NCBI GenBank assembly: GCA_021780095.1
Contig: JAJXZK010000344.1
Span: 1 to 7,790, forward strand
DNA from: Acidobacteriota bacterium
GTDB taxonomy: Bacteria > Acidobacteriota > Terriglobia > Terriglobales > Acidobacteriaceae
Reading direction: 5' to 3'
DNA length: 7,790 nt
In this document: positions 1,725-7,789 of the stretch, one piece after another
Layout of the letters: each line of letters starts with the position of its first letter
Position numbering within the stretch: the first letter of the stretch is position 1
The notes under the pieces: model-generated
The model's database searches: none
Told to the model about the DNA's origin: nothing
The model's input: only the letters and a program-made list of their open reading frames with translations
Program-made: the position numbers and the translations under genes

Positions 1725-2387
1725 TCACCCTTGATCGGAGGGCCGCCCCAGCCGCTCGCGAAAATATTCTTTCCAGCTTTCCGGCAGCGCCTCCACCACA
1801 AGCGCTCGCTGTACTGCACCTACATTCGCGCCGCTATAGTTTTTCTCGGCATATAAGCGCATGATCTCCGAAACCGGAACACCATTGGGATCGCGATGGA
1901 CTATGGTCATCTCATCGCCCGCCCCAACTTCTCCCTCCCTCGTCACAGCGACATAGAATCCCGTGCGCCGACTCGCAAGGAATCGCTTCACCATGTCGTT
2001 GTCTTCAAATCGTATGCCAAGCTTGTAACAAGGCAGCCGAGGTTGCGTCACCACCACCTCAGCTGAACCAATCGAATACCGATCGCCGAGATAGATCGAC
2101 TCCTCCGAGAAATCATCCAGCGTGAAGTTCTCCCCAAACATCCCCATCGGCAACTCTTTGCCTGCCAACTCTTCTCTCCAATAGTCGTAGTGTGTCAGCG
2201 GATAGCAATAGACGGCCTTATACTTGCCACCGTGAACGCTCAGGTCCGCCTGACGGTCACCGTCCAGATTCAGCGTCCGCAGCGAAATGCGGCCCTCAAC
2301 TGGCTCCTTGAAAATTCCCGTGGTCACGCTTTGCCCGTGCCACATCACCTCCCGCGGAAGCCCAACGTTCACCGACAATAATTTCAC
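1725..2387 (-). CDS. MOSC domain-containing protein, YiiM-like
   Basis: A 220-residue soluble protein with an MOSC domain (molybdenum cofactor sulfurase C-terminal fold), closest in layout to YiiM. The GTG start at 2387-2385 is preceded by GAGGGA with suitable spacing. The domain runs from about residue 20 to 165. Recognisable pieces are LDGDRQADLSVHGG (41-54) with the usual DxQAD and HGG, MFGENFT (83-89), YLGDRYSIG (99-107) and the VTQPRLPCYKLG segment containing Cys120, the conserved cysteine expected to contact the molybdenum cofactor. The C-terminal 45 or so residues (PVSEIMRLYAEKNY onwards) match the helical 3-alpha domain of YiiM-type proteins. E. coli YiiM is known for reduction of 6-hydroxylaminopurine, so detoxification of N-hydroxylated compounds is a reasonable guess, not shown here. 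It is divergent from the peptidase gene and same-strand with the broken zinc-ribbon gene. Confidence 0.88.
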   Translation of the reverse strand: MKLLSVNVGLPREVMWHGQSVTTGIFKEPVEGRISLRTLNLDGDRQADLSVHGGKYKAVYCYPLTHYDYWREELAGKELPMGMFGENFTLDDFSEESIYLGDRYSIGSAEVVVTQPRLPCYKLGIRFEDNDMVKRFLASRRTGFYVAVTREGEVGAGDEMTIVHRDPNGVPVSEIMRLYAEKNYSGANVGAVQRALVVEALPESWKEYFRERLGRPSDQG

Positions 2388-2395
2388 TGGATTTT

Positions 2396-2400
2396 CCCTC
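2396..2400 (-). promoter_or_regulatory. ribosome binding site of the MOSC gene
   Basis: On the minus strand GAGGG is followed by AAAATCCA and the GTG start, a spacing within the normal range. It supports the GTG at 2387 as the start, since there is no ATG nearby. Confidence 0.5.
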
Positions 2401-2580
2401 GTCTTTCGCCCGCGACTATCTGATGCATTCGGCAGCGTGGGGGTCGCTGCTCAACTCGCCCATGGCTTGCGCCGCTAAACTCAATACTGACTTCAACTTT
2501 GCATCTCCGCCCACACCGCATCTCGAAACCTCTCTCGATTCTCCATCCCCATCCTGTATTCTGAGATTCAACCTTCCCCT

Positions 2581-2585
2581 GGGAG
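2581..2585 (+). promoter_or_regulatory. ribosome binding site supporting the TTG start of the peptidase
   Basis: GGGAG at 2581-2585 is 8 bases upstream of TTG 2594. It is the only Shine-Dalgarno-like stretch I found that places a hydrophobic signal sequence exactly at the N terminus. Confidence 0.45.
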
Positions 2586-2593
2586 AATCCCCT

Positions 2594-4768
2594 TTGATTC
2601 TGCGTGCCGCGGCGTTCTTTTTGTTTGCCTCCTTCATCTCCGGACAAACAACGACTCCGCCCAATCCACCCCCGACTCCGGCCAATCCTGCGCCTCCTGC
2701 CACCATGCTTGGCTTTCGCGATGCAGCAGCGCAAGGCAAACTTGATCAGGAATTTCTGCAGGCCCCCAGCGCCACCCTCGCCGGCGAAGAGTTGAAAATC
2801 CTCACCGCCGCGCCGCATATCGCAGGCTCGAAAGAAGACTTCGCCACCGCCCAATATGTCGCACAAAAATTTCGAGATGCCGGCCTCGAAACCAAAATCG
2901 TTCCCTATCGCGTCATGATGAACACCCCTAAGAAGGTCGAAGTCACCGCCTTCGGGCGCGACGGCAAACAGCTCATGTCTGGCCCCACGCCAGAGCATGT
3001 CATCGATGATCCGTATCAGGATGACAAGCGCATCCCGACCGCCTATAACGCCTATTCTCCCTCCGGCGATGTCACCGCCGAGGTCATCTACGCCAACTAC
3101 GGCACGCCTAAAGATTTCGCCGAGCTCACCGCCCAACACATCAGCGTCAAGGGCAAAATCGTCATCGTCCGCTACGGAAAGGATTTCCGCGGAGTCAAAG
3201 CCTACGTCGCCCAGCAGCACGGAGCCGCGGGAATCATCATTTACTCCGACCCCGCCGACGACGGCTATTTCCAGGGCGATATCTATCCCGACGGCCCGTA
3301 CCGCCCCGAAAGCGGCGTCCAGCGCGGCTCCATTCAGTACCTCTTTAAGTATCCCGGCGATCCAACCACACCGGGCTTCGCCTCCACAGCGGACTTGCCT
3401 GCCGACAAACGTGTCCCGCTGGCCGACGCTACCAACGAACCGAAAATTCCATCGACGCCATTGTCGTATCGTGATGCCGCCCCCATTCTGCAAGCGCTCG
3501 GCGGTCCGGAATCTCCGCATGCCTGGCAGGGCGCGCTGCCCTTCACCTACCACATGGGTCCCGGCCCGGTGAAGGTTCACATGCTGCTGCAGGAAAACTA
3601 CGCTGTCCGCACCATCTGGGATGTTATCGGGAAAATTCCCGGCACGCAGTATCCCAATCAGCCTGTGATCGTCGGCAACCATCGCGACGCCTGGGTCTTC
3701 GGCGCCGTCGATCCCAACAGCGGAACCGCAGCCATGCTGGAAGCCGTCCACGGGATCGGCGCTCTGCTGCAAAGCGGTTGGAAGCCAAAACGCACTCTCA
3801 TCTTTGCCAGTTGGGATGGAGAAGAAGAAGGCCTCCTCGGCTCCACCGAGTGGACAGAAGACCATGCGGCAATGCTGGCGCACGCAGTTGCATATTTCAA
3901 TGTCGATGTCGGCGTCTCCGGTCCTGTCTTCGACGCCCAGGCTGTCCCTTCGCTCAAGCCATTCGTCATCGACATCACCAGGGAAGTTCCCAGTCCGCTC
4001 GGGGGCAGTGTCTACGACGTGTGGCTCCAGAACCAGCAACCTGCAGACCAGAAAAACGGCAGCATCGACCAGCACCTGGATCAGAGCCAGCACAGTTCTC
4101 CGTTGGTTGAAGGCATTCGCATGGGCGATCTCGGCAGCGGCTCCGACTACACTCCGTTCTTGCAGCATGACGGCGTTCCCTCCACCGACATCGGCTCCAG
4201 CGGCCCCTACGGCGTCTACCATTCCACGTTTGACGACTACACCTGGTTCACCAAATTTGCCGATCCCAATTTTGTCGATCTGCAGCAGCAGGGTCGCATC
4301 CTCGGCCTGGAAGCGCTACACATGGCCGATGCCGATCTGCCCCCCTACGACTACGCCGAGTACGGTGCCGAGGTCCTTGGCTATCTTCAAACGGCGCAGG
4401 AGAAAGCCGCCAAGTCCGGCATGACCAGCCTCAACTTCGCTCCCGCCATCGCTGCCGCCCATCATTTTCAAGATGCCGGCCAACACGCACTCGCGGCCGA
4501 ACGCAATCCCGCCGGTCCGCTGGCAGAAGAAAATCGAACCCTACGCAATGTGGAAGGAGACCTGCTGGACCCGCGCGGTCTTCCCGGCCGCCCCTGGTTC
4601 AAGCACACTATCTACGCTCCCGGGGAGTACACGGGCTACGCCGCCATCGTCATCCCTGGCGTCAATGAGGCCATCGAGGCCAAAGACACCACGCACGCCG
4701 CCGACCAGCTTGAGATCCTGACCCATGCGCTTGACGACGCCGCCGCAACCCTGAACCAGATGCCGTAA
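2594..4768 (+). CDS. secreted M28 family zinc peptidase, glutamate carboxypeptidase II type
   Basis: A 724-residue exported metallopeptidase resembling glutamate carboxypeptidase II (750 aa) in length and layout. With the TTG start at 2594 it begins with a signal peptide (MILRAAAFFLFASFISG), then a Pro/Thr-rich linker and a globular start at LGFRDAAAQ. A PA (protease-associated) domain falls near residues 160-245, including YPDGPYRPESGVQRGSI. The M28 catalytic domain keeps all expected di-zinc ligands: H363 and D373 in NHRDAWVFGAVDPNSG, E410-E411 in SWDGEEEGLLGS, D438 in FNVDVG and H543 in YGVYHSTFDDY. The C-terminal transferrin-receptor-like dimerisation domain is recognisable at GLPGRPWFKHTIYAPGEY. 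GGGAG lies 8 bases before the TTG. A longer frame opens at ATG 2423 but adds 57 residues without similarity. It probably trims peptides in the periplasm or outside the cell, and the true substrate is unknown. The mlaE-like gene follows after 96 bases. Confidence 0.9.
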   Translation: MILRAAAFFLFASFISGQTTTPPNPPPTPANPAPPATMLGFRDAAAQGKLDQEFLQAPSATLAGEELKILTAAPHIAGSKEDFATAQYVAQKFRDAGLETKIVPYRVMMNTPKKVEVTAFGRDGKQLMSGPTPEHVIDDPYQDDKRIPTAYNAYSPSGDVTAEVIYANYGTPKDFAELTAQHISVKGKIVIVRYGKDFRGVKAYVAQQHGAAGIIIYSDPADDGYFQGDIYPDGPYRPESGVQRGSIQYLFKYPGDPTTPGFASTADLPADKRVPLADATNEPKIPSTPLSYRDAAPILQALGGPESPHAWQGALPFTYHMGPGPVKVHMLLQENYAVRTIWDVIGKIPGTQYPNQPVIVGNHRDAWVFGAVDPNSGTAAMLEAVHGIGALLQSGWKPKRTLIFASWDGEEEGLLGSTEWTEDHAAMLAHAVAYFNVDVGVSGPVFDAQAVPSLKPFVIDITREVPSPLGGSVYDVWLQNQQPADQKNGSIDQHLDQSQHSSPLVEGIRMGDLGSGSDYTPFLQHDGVPSTDIGSSGPYGVYHSTFDDYTWFTKFADPNFVDLQQQGRILGLEALHMADADLPPYDYAEYGAEVLGYLQTAQEKAAKSGMTSLNFAPAIAAAHHFQDAGQHALAAERNPAGPLAEENRTLRNVEGDLLDPRGLPGRPWFKHTIYAPGEYTGYAAIVIPGVNEAIEAKDTTHAADQLEILTHALDDAAATLNQMP

Positions 4769-4852
4769 TCAACGGCGTCGCACTCGATCTTCAACCATCG
4801 TCGCGATTTCCGTAAGATTCTCCATTCCCTTCGCCAATCCCGCCACAGATGC

Positions 4853-4858
4853 CATAAT
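4853..4858 (+). promoter_or_regulatory. possible -10 element just upstream of the mlaE-like gene
   Basis: CATAAT matches the sigma-70 -10 consensus at five of six bases. At 17 bases upstream lies TTCGCC, a poor -35. Transcription would start about 7 bases downstream, at or next to the ATG at 4865. This gene has no visible Shine-Dalgarno sequence, so a leaderless transcript is possible. The short match is also easily produced by chance. Confidence 0.3.
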
Positions 4859-4864
4859 GCCAGT

Positions 4865-5632
4865 ATGGAGATTGGTGAGTTTCTCCGAGAAAAAGTCCTG
4901 GCCGTACAGGAATATTCCTTGCTGTCATGGACTGCGTTGACGAACATTTTCCGTCGCCCCTTCTACTGGGTTGACCTGTACACCCAAGCCGATCTCATCG
5001 GCGTCGGCTCCGTGCCAATCGTCATTCTCACCGGCTTTTTCACCGGCGGCGTGCTGGCTTTGAACTCCGCATCAACGCTGGCACAATTTGGAGCCAAGGC
5101 AGTCACAGGGACCCTGGTCAGCCTGTCCATGGTCAAAGAACTCGGGCCCGTGCTGACTGGCCTCATGGTCTCCGGCCGCAATGCTTCCGGCATGGCCAGC
5201 GAACTCGGCTCCATGCAGGTCACCGAGCAGATTGACGCCATGCGCGCCCTGGGCACCGACCCGCTGAAAAAGCTGGTCACCCCGCGCATCCTTTCCACCG
5301 TCACCATGCTGGTCTTCCTCACCATCATTTCCGACGGGCTGGGAACTCTCGGCGGCGGGTGGATCTCTTCCAGAATGGGCATCAATCTTTCGCAATACTT
5401 CCACTCGGCCTACCAGGCGCTCCGTTATCCAGACGTTCTGGAAGGCCTGGTGAAACCTCTGCTCTTCGGCTTCATCATCGCCACCGTAGGCTGTTACTTC
5501 GGCATGTCCACGCGCGGTGGCACGCAGGGCGTCGGCCGTTCCACCACCCAGGCCGTCGTCGTCAGTTCTGTCTTGATTATCTTCAGCGATTTTCTGATCA
5601 GTCAGCTAACCATTGGACTCTTTGGCCGCTAA
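4865..5632 (+). CDS. mlaE: MlaE-family ABC transporter permease
   Basis: A 255-residue inner-membrane permease of the MlaE (YrbE, DUF140) family, the membrane part of ABC systems that move phospholipids or other lipids between the inner membrane and the envelope. After an amphipathic N-terminal stretch, hydrophobic segments lie near residues 46-68, 85-105, 142-165, 194-214 and 229-252. The hallmark central block is intact: KELGPVLTGLMVSGRNASG (91-109), then ASELGSMQVTEQIDAMRALG (111-130), which contains the EQIDA coupling helix that contacts the ATPase. A second signature, RGGTQGVGRSTTQAVV, is near residues 217-232. Length is normal for the family. The ATG at 4865 has no clear Shine-Dalgarno sequence. 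The ATPase gene begins 23 bases after its stop on the same strand, so the two are very probably co-transcribed. Confidence 0.93.
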   Translation: MEIGEFLREKVLAVQEYSLLSWTALTNIFRRPFYWVDLYTQADLIGVGSVPIVILTGFFTGGVLALNSASTLAQFGAKAVTGTLVSLSMVKELGPVLTGLMVSGRNASGMASELGSMQVTEQIDAMRALGTDPLKKLVTPRILSTVTMLVFLTIISDGLGTLGGGWISSRMGINLSQYFHSAYQALRYPDVLEGLVKPLLFGFIIATVGCYFGMSTRGGTQGVGRSTTQAVVVSSVLIIFSDFLISQLTIGLFGR

Positions 5633-5655
5633 ATCAAAGGCGCTGGAACCAATCT

Positions 5656-6495
5656 ATGTCGACCGCGGAAACCATACCTTCCCCCCAGCAGACCATCGGA
5701 GATCCCAACGCGCCGGTGGTCTCGTTCGAGCACGTCTCCATCGGCTTCGACGGACATTCTGTCCTGCTCAACATCAGCTTCCAGGCTCGCTCCGGAGAAA
5801 TGGTCATCATCCTCGGCCCAGCCGGGGGCGGCAAAAGCATCCTGCTCAAGCTCGCCAACGGCCTCATCCCGCCTGATGCAGGACGCGTCCGCCTCTTTGG
5901 GAAAGACATCAACAAACTCTCCCAGGATGAGATGTTCGAATTCCGCAGCCACATCGGCATGGTCTTTCAGGAGGGTGCTCTCTTCGACTCACTCTCCGTC
6001 CGTGACAACGTCGCCTATCGCCTTCTCGAAGAGCATGACGACCCGGAAGAGATCAATCGCCGCGTCCTCGAAAGCCTGCGATTCGTGGAACTCGAACATG
6101 CCATCGACAAATTTCCCGCCGAACTTTCCGGTGGCATGAAGCGCCGTGTCGCCATCGCGCGCGCCATCATCACCCAACCTAGCTTGCTACTCTATGACTC
6201 GCCCACAGGCGGCCTCGACCCCATTACCTCCACCACCATTATTGATCTGGTCATGAAGCAGCGCGACGTCTATGAAAGCACCGCCCTGCTGGTCACCCAT
6301 CGCCTGCAGGATGCCTTCACCCTGGCCACCCATCGCTACAATCTGCAGACCAAACAGATGGAGCGCATCGAGAACGACGGCGTCGATCCCAACACCACCC
6401 TCATGGTGCTTAAGGAAGGCCACATCGCCTTCACCGGCTCCCTCGTCGATCTCCTCCGCTCGAAAGACCCGTACATCCAGGAATATTTAGCCTAA
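5656..6495 (+). CDS. mlaF: MlaF-like ABC transporter ATP-binding protein with altered Walker B
   Basis: A 279-residue cytoplasmic ATPase expected to power the MlaE permease encoded just upstream. The frame is open further left, but the ATG at 5656 falls after the permease stop and yields a normal N terminus leading into VSFEHVSIGFDG. ABC motifs in order are Walker A GPAGGGKS (G54-S61, with K60), Q-loop Gln105 in GMVFQEGALFDSLS, signature LSGGMKRR (157-164), Walker B LLLYD ending at D181, D-loop GLDP, and H-loop His215 in LLVTHR. EGALFDSLSVRDNVAYRL is typical of the Mla/Mkl branch. The residue after the Walker B aspartate, normally the catalytic glutamate, is Ser182 (TCG codon at 6199-6201). 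An acidic and basic insert follows the H-loop (about residues 225-245). The phosphofructokinase frame starts 22 bases downstream. No substrate-binding MlaD gene is next to it within the window. Confidence 0.9.
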   Translation: MSTAETIPSPQQTIGDPNAPVVSFEHVSIGFDGHSVLLNISFQARSGEMVIILGPAGGGKSILLKLANGLIPPDAGRVRLFGKDINKLSQDEMFEFRSHIGMVFQEGALFDSLSVRDNVAYRLLEEHDDPEEINRRVLESLRFVELEHAIDKFPAELSGGMKRRVAIARAIITQPSLLLYDSPTGGLDPITSTTIIDLVMKQRDVYESTALLVTHRLQDAFTLATHRYNLQTKQMERIENDGVDPNTTLMVLKEGHIAFTGSLVDLLRSKDPYIQEYLA

Positions 6496-6504
6496 CCGCA
6501 TCGA

Positions 6505-6510
6505 AAGGAG
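6505..6510 (+). promoter_or_regulatory. ribosome binding site of the pfk frame
   Basis: AAGGAG ends 7 bases before the ATG at 6518, a near-ideal Shine-Dalgarno sequence. It decides between that ATG and the out-of-frame ATG at 6514. It sits in the 22-base gap after mlaF, which suggests translation as part of the same transcript. Confidence 0.75.
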
Positions 6511-6517
6511 CACATGC

Positions 6518-6946
6518 ATGTCAGCTCAGCGAATCGGTATCCTCACCGGAGGCGGCGACGTCCCAGGTCTAAATTCGGTCATTAAGTCGGTCGTCTATCA
6601 CGGTTGCGCAATTGGATGTCAGGTAGTTGGCATCCGTCGCGGCTGGGAAGGATTGACGCACGTTGACCTGAAAGATCCGGCCAGCACGGCGCGGTACATC
6701 CTGCCGCTCAACCGGGAGAACACTCGCACCATCGACCGCACCGGCGGCACCTTCCTGCATAGCTCGCGCACCAATCCCACCAAGATGCAAAAGCTGCCGC
6801 CTGTGCTCGAGGGGAAACAGTTTTCCAGCAAACAATCCACCAAGAATGGCGTCACCACCACAGTGTTCGACGTCACTCCCGCGGTGCTCAGGAATATCGA
6901 GACCCTGGGCCTCAATTATGTGGTAGCGATCGGCGGCGATGACACC
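6518..6946 (+). pseudogene. 6-phosphofructokinase, N-terminal 143 codons (probably PPi-dependent type)
   Basis: This is the part of the chimeric frame that belongs with the genes to its left. It has a good ribosome binding site and close spacing to mlaF, and its codon use is like theirs (21 of the first 40 codons end in G or C). In the intact enzyme, fructose 6-phosphate is phosphorylated to fructose 1,6-bisphosphate in glycolysis, and PPi-linked forms run reversibly. The family continues after GGDDT with a strand and helix leading to PKT-x-DND, all lost here. The true gene was most likely complete before the join. Confidence 0.8.
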
Positions 6947-7594
6947 CATGAATTCCTCGTGCTGGCACTGGACGGCAATCCCGTGCCCCAGCCGCGCGCC
7001 GTGAAGGTGCTGACGCTGGGACCGGGGGAGCGCATCGACGCCATCGTGGCGATGAACCAGCCCGGCGTGTGGATCCTGGGCGCGATCGATGACGCCACGC
7101 GGCAGGGCGGCCTGGGCGTCGTAGTGGAATATTCCGGCCAGCACCGGCCCCCGCAGTGGGCCCCGCAACCCGGGGTCTACTGGGACTACACGCTGTTCGG
7201 CGGCCCCGCCTCCGGCAAGGCGCCCGCCCAGACCATCGAGATGATCTTCGAAAAGGTGCCCCGTGGCGCCCGGCCGTTCAATCTGTATACCGTCAACGGC
7301 AAGCCCTACCCGCACGACCGCGAGTTCGTGCTGCAGCAGGGCCACCGCTATCGACTGCTGCTGCGCAATCGCACCGACGATGCGCATCCCGTGCACCTGC
7401 ACCGCCATCTCTTCGAGCTGGTCGACGTGAACGGCAAACCCACCAGCGGCATCCTCAAGGACACGGTCATCGTGCCCATGTACGGCCGTGTCGCGGTGGA
7501 TTTCACCGCCGACCAGCCCGGTCTGTCCCTGTTCCACTGCCACATCCAGCATCACATGGACTACGGTTTCAAGGCGCTCTTCCGGTACGCTTGA
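6518..7594 (+). CDS. chimeric ORF: phosphofructokinase N-terminal half joined to multicopper oxidase C-terminal half
   Basis: A 358-residue frame made of two unrelated pieces. Residues 1-143 are the start of a 6-phosphofructokinase: RIGILTGGGDVPGLNSVIK with the nucleotide or pyrophosphate loop, RRGWEGL, ENTRTIDRTGGTFLHSSRTN, and IGGDDT at 138-143. The Asp after GGD is what PPi-dependent enzymes use, while ATP-dependent ones usually have Gly. The following PKT-x-DND catalytic block is absent. From residue 144 (HEFLVLALDGNPVP) the protein is a multicopper oxidase: the end of a middle cupredoxin domain, then a last domain with HPVHLHRH (H290, H293, H295, H297) and FHCHIQHHMDYGF (H340, C341, H342, H346; the axial position is Phe). 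The oxidase's N-terminal copper-binding HxH motifs are missing. Neither half could work in this arrangement, so I read it as two truncated genes joined by a breakpoint near 6947, not a functional fusion. Confidence 0.85.
   Translation: MSAQRIGILTGGGDVPGLNSVIKSVVYHGCAIGCQVVGIRRGWEGLTHVDLKDPASTARYILPLNRENTRTIDRTGGTFLHSSRTNPTKMQKLPPVLEGKQFSSKQSTKNGVTTTVFDVTPAVLRNIETLGLNYVVAIGGDDTHEFLVLALDGNPVPQPRAVKVLTLGPGERIDAIVAMNQPGVWILGAIDDATRQGGLGVVVEYSGQHRPPQWAPQPGVYWDYTLFGGPASGKAPAQTIEMIFEKVPRGARPFNLYTVNGKPYPHDREFVLQQGHRYRLLLRNRTDDAHPVHLHRHLFELVDVNGKPTSGILKDTVIVPMYGRVAVDFTADQPGLSLFHCHIQHHMDYGFKALFRYA
6938..6955. other. probable breakpoint between unrelated sequences
   Basis: Phosphofructokinase homology ends with the ACC codon of GGDDT (6944-6946), and multicopper oxidase homology begins with the following CAT (6947-6949). 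A GAATTC hexamer (EcoRI site) lies at 6950-6955, right at the join. Another GAATTC occurs at 5938-5943 inside mlaF, so the hexamer alone is not proof of a cloning join. Confidence 0.7.
6947..7594 (+). pseudogene. multicopper oxidase, C-terminal 215 codons
   Basis: Laccase-like multicopper oxidases couple oxidation of a substrate to reduction of O2 to water with four copper ions, usually outside the cytoplasm. Only the C-terminal share of the ligands is present: HPVHLHRH and the HCHIQHH cluster holding the type 1 Cys341. The Phe at the axial type 1 position, five residues after His346, is typical of higher-potential enzymes. The stop TGA at 7592-7594 directly after FKALFRYA looks like the natural end of the protein. 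Codon use is clearly more GC-rich (35 of the first 40 codons end in G or C). No signal peptide or start is available, so as placed it cannot be expressed as an oxidase. Confidence 0.85.
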
Positions 7595-7606
7595 GCCCGG
7601 CTGGCC

Positions 7607-7789
7607 CTGCAGCCGCCGGACGGCGCCCTGGCTCTGAACACCGTAAACGCCGTCGACCGGGCCAGGGTCATAGCCCAGGCGCCGCAGCTGCCGCTGGGCC
7701 TCGATCACGGCACAGCCGCGCATGGGCCGCTCGCCGGGGGCCAGGTTGGGGAAGCGCGGCAGAACAGGCTCCCACTCGATGTCGACAAT
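7607..7789 (-). CDS. peptidoglycan-binding domain protein, fragment entering from the right edge
   Basis: The minus-strand frame is open at the right edge. It first gives a proline-rich stretch (IVDIEWEPVLPRFPNLAPG), then from the ATG-encoded Met at 7723 a PG_binding_1-like segment: AVIEAQRQLRRLGYDPGPVD followed by GVYGVQSQGAVRRLQ. This matches the first two helices of the three-helix domain, with the usual LGY-x-PGPVDG turn. Similarity stops at about 7607. The third helix is not seen and the same frame runs on without a stop across the antisense of the oxidase and pfk pieces as far as 6569. I therefore give only the supported part; the true 3' end is unknown. Such domains anchor hydrolases, enzymes or signalling proteins to the cell wall, but the rest of this protein is outside the window. 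Confidence 0.5.

Follow-up and report, generated by a model that had tools for sequence, protein, structure and literature searches.

A phosphofructokinase–multicopper oxidase hybrid reading frame in an acidobacterial contig is probably an assembly artefact bridged by a prolyl-tRNA synthetase gene

Results

The hybrid reading frame

The open reading frame at 6518-7594 (+ strand, 358 aa) of contig JAJXZK010000344.1, which joins the N-terminal part of a phosphofructokinase (PFK) to the C-terminal part of a multicopper oxidase (MCO), is in our judgment an assembly artefact, to which we assign a probability of about 0.88. Comparison of the sequences suggests that a PFK gene from a member of the Terriglobia and an MCO gene from another, probably gammaproteobacterial, bacterium were bridged by a short piece of a prolyl-tRNA synthetase (ProRS) gene. 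The window referred to below is the whole stretch of DNA that was analysed, 7,790 nt in length. The source record is probably a metagenome contig with low coverage in this region.

The original prediction had assigned residues 1-143, up to GGDDT, to PFK and residues 144-358 to MCO, and both the coordinates and the motifs were found to be right by Pfam and blastn. Pfam places PF00365 (PFK) at residues 5-146 (profile 1-106 of 277), PF00394 (Cu-oxidase) at residues 143-189 (profile 87-133 of 157), and PF07731 (Cu-oxidase_2) at residues 255-356. The switch is in frame, as had been proposed, and is located at 6946/6947, which corresponds to codon 143/144. In blastn, the alignment to each of the four PFK loci ends at 6947, and the alignments to MCO loci begin at 6947 (two loci), at 6951 (five loci), or further on (the rest). 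The exchange is equally abrupt at the level of single bases. Compared with five PFK relatives, the window is identical at 25-28 of the 30 bases just 5′ of the join and at 4-6 of 30 after it; compared with seven MCO relatives, the values are 5-7 of 30 before the join and 20-25 of 30 after it. A direct repeat shared by PFK and MCO was ruled out as the cause of the join, since the two have at most about 2 nt in common there. A chimeric clone made by restriction and ligation was also considered, as an EcoRI site (GAATTC) is present at 6950, but the homology switch precedes the cut. Residues EF of the MCO (or of the ProRS) account for the site.

The PFK half (6518..6946, + strand) comprises 143 of ∼394 residues and is cut after GGDDT. 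Its closest relatives are from the Terriglobia set: it is 94% identical in amino acid sequence to the PFK of genome G369 (contig C118, locus L074), with 90% DNA identity over 6505-6947, and the four PFK loci carry titles that name either Terriglobia or Acidobacteriaceae. G369 was drawn from the class of the genome of locus L030, whose title is Terriglobia. It holds one close PFK (92%), and its next match is 44% identical over residues 2-90. Full-length relatives are 390-394 aa long and continue from GGDDT into LSY in 23 of 23 distinct loci (28 loci, less five duplicates); the window continues into HEF. About 251 C-terminal residues are thus missing from the window, including the region of PKTMDND, a motif that binds substrate. 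The full-length PFK of L074 continues past the equivalent of residue 143 with LSYAAELDRQGVKVIAVPKTMDND and has PKTMDND, in agreement with the earlier observation that the PKT-x-DND block is absent from the hybrid.

The MCO half (6947..7594, + strand; PF00394 and PF07731) comprises 215 residues, corresponding to the end of domain 2 and to domain 3. Its first residue corresponds to residue 269 of P0001, a protein of 483 aa to which the half is 85% identical. The copper motifs HPVHLHRH and HCHIQHH are present and align with those of seven relatives. The HWHG and HSH motifs of MCOs bind copper; in P0001, HWHG (102) and HSHAM (144) fall in the part that is missing from the window, so the N-terminal copper motifs are lacking, as had been noted. 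Judged from the sequence, neither half of the hybrid reading frame is an enzyme, PFK and MCO both being incomplete with catalytic-core motifs missing on each side, and the earlier view that neither could work stands.

Origin of the oxidase half

Among the 120 proteins listed of 8000 scored, the best relatives of the MCO half are P0001-P0003, with 85, 83, and 83% identity, and a Steroidobacteraceae protein (P0004) reaches 76%. The residues at the join site of these 120 proteins are HEF in 76, His-other-Phe in 43, and unreadable in one. In a set of 399 Terriglobia genomes, the best of the matches listed reach 72%, and the best match to the MCO side in G369 is 32% identical over residues 250-351. 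The separate searches that had been recommended for the two halves thus returned different closest relatives, in the Terriglobia set for PFK and in a gammaproteobacterial branch for MCO.

This branch was defined with a tree of 95 rows, built from P0001-P0050, the named members of the 120 listed proteins, and the loci up to L045 with alignments of >190 residues. The window groups with P0001-P0003 (100/99). A wider branch around them (96/94) includes each of the four rows with the names Gammaproteobacteria or Steroidobacteraceae and no row with an acidobacterial label; 49 of the 95 rows in the tree are unnamed, and its bootstrap values had not yet converged. Two loci with proteobacterial titles, L042 and L043, were counted as acidobacterial on account of their L prefix, and both fall outside the branch of the window. 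Their titles, Rhodanobacteraceae and Betaproteobacteria (BOG_genome_mining), may be wrong. The class draw obtained with the L042 genome seems to match that of the Terriglobia genome of L030, and the L043 genome is within that draw; the two class draws apparently hold the same genomes, which suggests that the L042 genome is classed with that of L030 despite its title. Based on the relatives and the tree, the MCO half is most likely gammaproteobacterial. A search for the MCO at 1e-40 in 398 genomes of the phylum of L046 (one of the ProRS loci described below) gave no match, an uninformative answer by which the donor is not placed.

Base composition also changes near the join. The best GC change-point of the whole window, found from composition alone, lies after base 6954, and none of 200 block shuffles gave one as strong. 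The GC content of the last 844 nt is 0.678, and the highest value among 6103 upstream segments of equal length is 0.620. GC3 lies at 0.64-0.75 upstream and rises to 0.87 over the MCO part, the following piece having 0.86. As proof of a foreign MCO, GC3 was set aside and is taken as supportive, since two of 36 acidobacterial MCO halves also have a value of at least 0.87.

A prolyl-tRNA synthetase match across the join

The original prediction saw no linker between the two halves. Instead, ∼20-38 nt around the join resemble ProRS and form a tiny third piece. Three loci (L046-L048) with the titles Oceanicella, uncultured Roseovarius, and uncultured Amylibacter, which we take to be Alphaproteobacteria, match across the join over residues 96-168 or 96-171. 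Their sequence at the join, IGGDDTHEFLVLAETGES, compared with IGGDDTHEFLVLALDGN in the window, gives 13 identical residues placed exactly over the join. In DNA, identity at the join is 34/39 nt for L046 and L047 and 30/39 for L048, and just upstream it is only 10-12/30. The match is closest at 6929..6966 (+ strand), where the 38 nt IGGDDTHEFLVLA are found 38/38 in the ProRS gene of genome G1268 (L119). The reading frame of L119 scores 737.6 bits and that of L046 723.3 bits with NCBIfam NF008979, proline--tRNA ligase (cut-off 550), these two being the reading frames assigned by the family search. The sequence across the join matches ProRS at the DNA level.

With up to three mismatches allowed, an even draw of 367 genomes from the class gave one genome with the 6929-6966 pattern. 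The order to which this genome belongs was searched because one member had already matched, and 46 of the 195 genomes searched there had the pattern; the match in G1268 was the one exact 38/38. Neither end of that match extends past the 38 nt; in five of 12 fetched loci, which have CCG in front of ATC or ATT, identity with the window continues for two bases on the left. As controls, the reversed pattern was found in none of the rows listed for the class draw and the order, and the native PFK continuation in none of the 195 genomes of the order.

Residue 147 provides a further distinction. The MCO relatives have HEFxVLA in common with the ProRS, x being residue 147, and at this position the window has Leu, as the ProRS do. 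In 119 readable MCO proteins of the 120 listed, the site holds His in 80, Gln in 16, Arg in 15, Asn in six, Glu in one, Tyr in one, and Leu in none. A pattern search of the fetched loci gave 56 more MCO sites, duplicates included, and none of these has Leu either. To assess the place of the join, all 185,164 possible joins of the G369 PFK and the P0001 MCO were compared with the L119 ProRS at each of its positions. The observed join, 143|269, is the only one with 12/13 identities, a figure that is not a clean probability, as the ProRS was found with the seed GGDDTHEF spanning the join and the match is partly selected. Three joins come next with 10 identities, and two of these are the observed join shifted by one residue. 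The place of the join, the Leu typical of ProRS, and the 38-nt match in DNA all point in one direction, suggesting that the ProRS likeness at the join is not due to chance.

A probable second break and the upstream neighbourhood

At the 3′ end of the MCO, a peptidoglycan-binding domain (PF01471) on the opposite strand (7595..7789, − strand) is cut mid-domain, with a match to profile positions 4-40 of 57. In 26 of 27 homologues the alignment breaks off at query residue 61-68 (about 7586-7609), and in the other one, P0122, it extends weakly to residue 82. Every one of the 27 proteins goes on past its aligned part, whereas the sequence of the window passes, with no stop codon, into the complementary strand of the MCO end. 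These alignments make a second false join, at about 7595-7609, probable. A 15-nt inverted repeat at 7330/7602, near this break, was judged to be chance.

Upstream of the hybrid, the M28-MlaE-ABC genes fit G369 best of eight genomes, with 82% DNA identity over 4865-6485 and 73% amino acid identity for the M28 peptidase. The MlaE-ABC genes (4865-6495) adjoin PFK in the window and are on a separate contig from it in G369, the closest genome (C40 versus C118). Beside PFK in 28 loci, some of them duplicates, no MlaE match was found, and the ABC matches were only 31-34%, in three overlapping loci. The boundary at 6496-6517 was considered as a further join (at 6496-6505); the ends of both genes are intact, and a normal gene-order difference appears likelier from the sequence. 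UvrA-CPBP (2-1139) and M28-MlaE-ABC (2423-6495) are each conserved with G369, on the separate contigs C102 and C40. A 612-codon open frame at 2384-4222 (− strand), antisense to the M28 peptidase gene, is probably an effect of composition and not a gene.

Search for other copies of the fusion

The same fusion in independent genomes had been named as an observation that would speak against an artefact, and none was found in the searches made. None of 48 loci held a PFK-MCO fusion: in four the match covers residues 1-146, in 41 it lies in the MCO half and begins at 129-144, and the other three are L046-L048. Nor was one present among the 120 proteins listed of 8000 scored, where query coverage was at most 66%, or among the matches listed for 399 genomes, where no match spanned both halves and a true relative would rank first. 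Megablast of the window against plasmids and phages gave no match, IMG/VR viral contigs gave no exact 30-nt match, and an Rfam search of the window gave no match. A literature search for a PFK-MCO fusion found no relevant description.

Discussion

A proposed route from PFK to MCO through ProRS

Our current hypothesis is that an assembler using a short overlap or k-mer (∼20 nt) would have walked from PFK to ProRS and from ProRS to MCO. The bridging gene would be a ProRS like those of Oceanicella, Roseovarius, and Amylibacter. The PFK-ProRS overlap, at 6927/6929-6947, is 19 nt, or 21 nt with CCG; the PFK of G369 also has ATCGGCGGCGATGACACCC followed by C or an equivalent. The ProRS-MCO overlap, at 6947-6966, would be about 20 nt of CATGAATTCCnCGTGCTGGC-like sequence, perhaps with one mismatch, the donor MCO sequence being deduced here. 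Common assemblers start at k = 21. We infer that the step took place in the assembler rather than by template switching during PCR. Such a walk through overlaps of ∼20 nt would account for the place of the join, which recombination or fusion does not explain. As the direct overlap of PFK and MCO is so short, the explanation rests wholly on the third gene, which counts against it. A further point against it is that, if the MCO donor had His (CAC), as most relatives do, there would be a ProRS-MCO mismatch that a strict k-mer walk would not cross.

The original prediction had favoured an artefact, either a misassembly or a chimeric clone, and had allowed for a rearrangement. The ProRS signature, the differing relatives of the two halves, and the failure to find a second copy in the searches made strengthen the artefact reading and make a rearrangement much less likely, and the clone made by restriction and ligation is rejected. 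A physical chimera that arose before sequencing, when two or three fragments were ligated or the polymerase switched templates, and that was assembled correctly afterwards is an improbable source of the hybrid. The available text of PMC3411829 describes ligation chimeras as expected to have short junction homology and keeps only junctions of at least 7-9 nt as likely real rearrangements, so the low PFK-MCO junction homology fits ligation, and two breaks within about 650 nt fit serial chimeras. However, blind ligation leaves the ProRS signature unexplained, and template switching, which could explain it, needs two switches within 38 nt.

Readings in which the DNA is real fare worse. Natural illegitimate recombination, in which a foreign MCO fragment entered an acidobacterial PFK gene and both were destroyed, is very unlikely; the sequence is continuous and in frame, and many genomes of the Terriglobia set have MCOs of the wider family (up to 72% identical among the matches listed), but the ProRS match over the join is left unexplained, no second example was found in the searches made, and, with a single close PFK in G369, its loss could be costly. 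Still less probable on this evidence is real acidobacterial DNA in which a gammaproteobacterial MCO would have recombined into PFK at a ProRS-like site, across phyla by way of a tRNA-synthetase motif. Almost no weight, finally, can be given to the notion that the fusion is a genuine protein that is expressed and has a novel function. In its favour, there is a single open frame that has a start codon, with AAAGGAG upstream, but both catalytic cores are incomplete (PKTMDND of PFK and HWHG/HSH of MCO are absent), no homologous fusion was found in the searches made, and a random join would by our estimate fall in the right strand and frame about one time in six.

Implications and comparison with known systems

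The hybrid would not represent a new enzyme, and as biology it does not matter. It does serve as a warning, as a 358-residue reading frame with strong Pfam matches on both sides mimics a fusion gene in catalogues. The join falls at the one place where PFK and MCO both resemble a third conserved gene. Checking a suspicious join for a match to a third gene is an inexpensive way to test for false fusions in protein catalogues built from metagenomes.

In relation to the phosphofructokinase family (PF00365), the hybrid shares the N-terminal 143 residues with GGDDT and differs in the absence of the C-terminal half with the PKTxDND region. In relation to the multicopper oxidase family (PF00394, PF07731), it shares the C-terminal 215 residues with HPVHLHRH and HCHIQHH and differs in the absence of domain 1 (HWHG, HSH) and of the first part of domain 2. 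The closest parallel is with interspecies chimeric metagenome contigs. In the available text of PMC8171044, chimeric nodes in de Bruijn graphs are sequences conserved in different species, and here, likewise, a stretch shared between species would join unrelated paths. Unlike the chimeric nodes described in that text, the flanking genes here are not homologous to one another, and a third gene, ProRS, would bridge them through two short overlaps.
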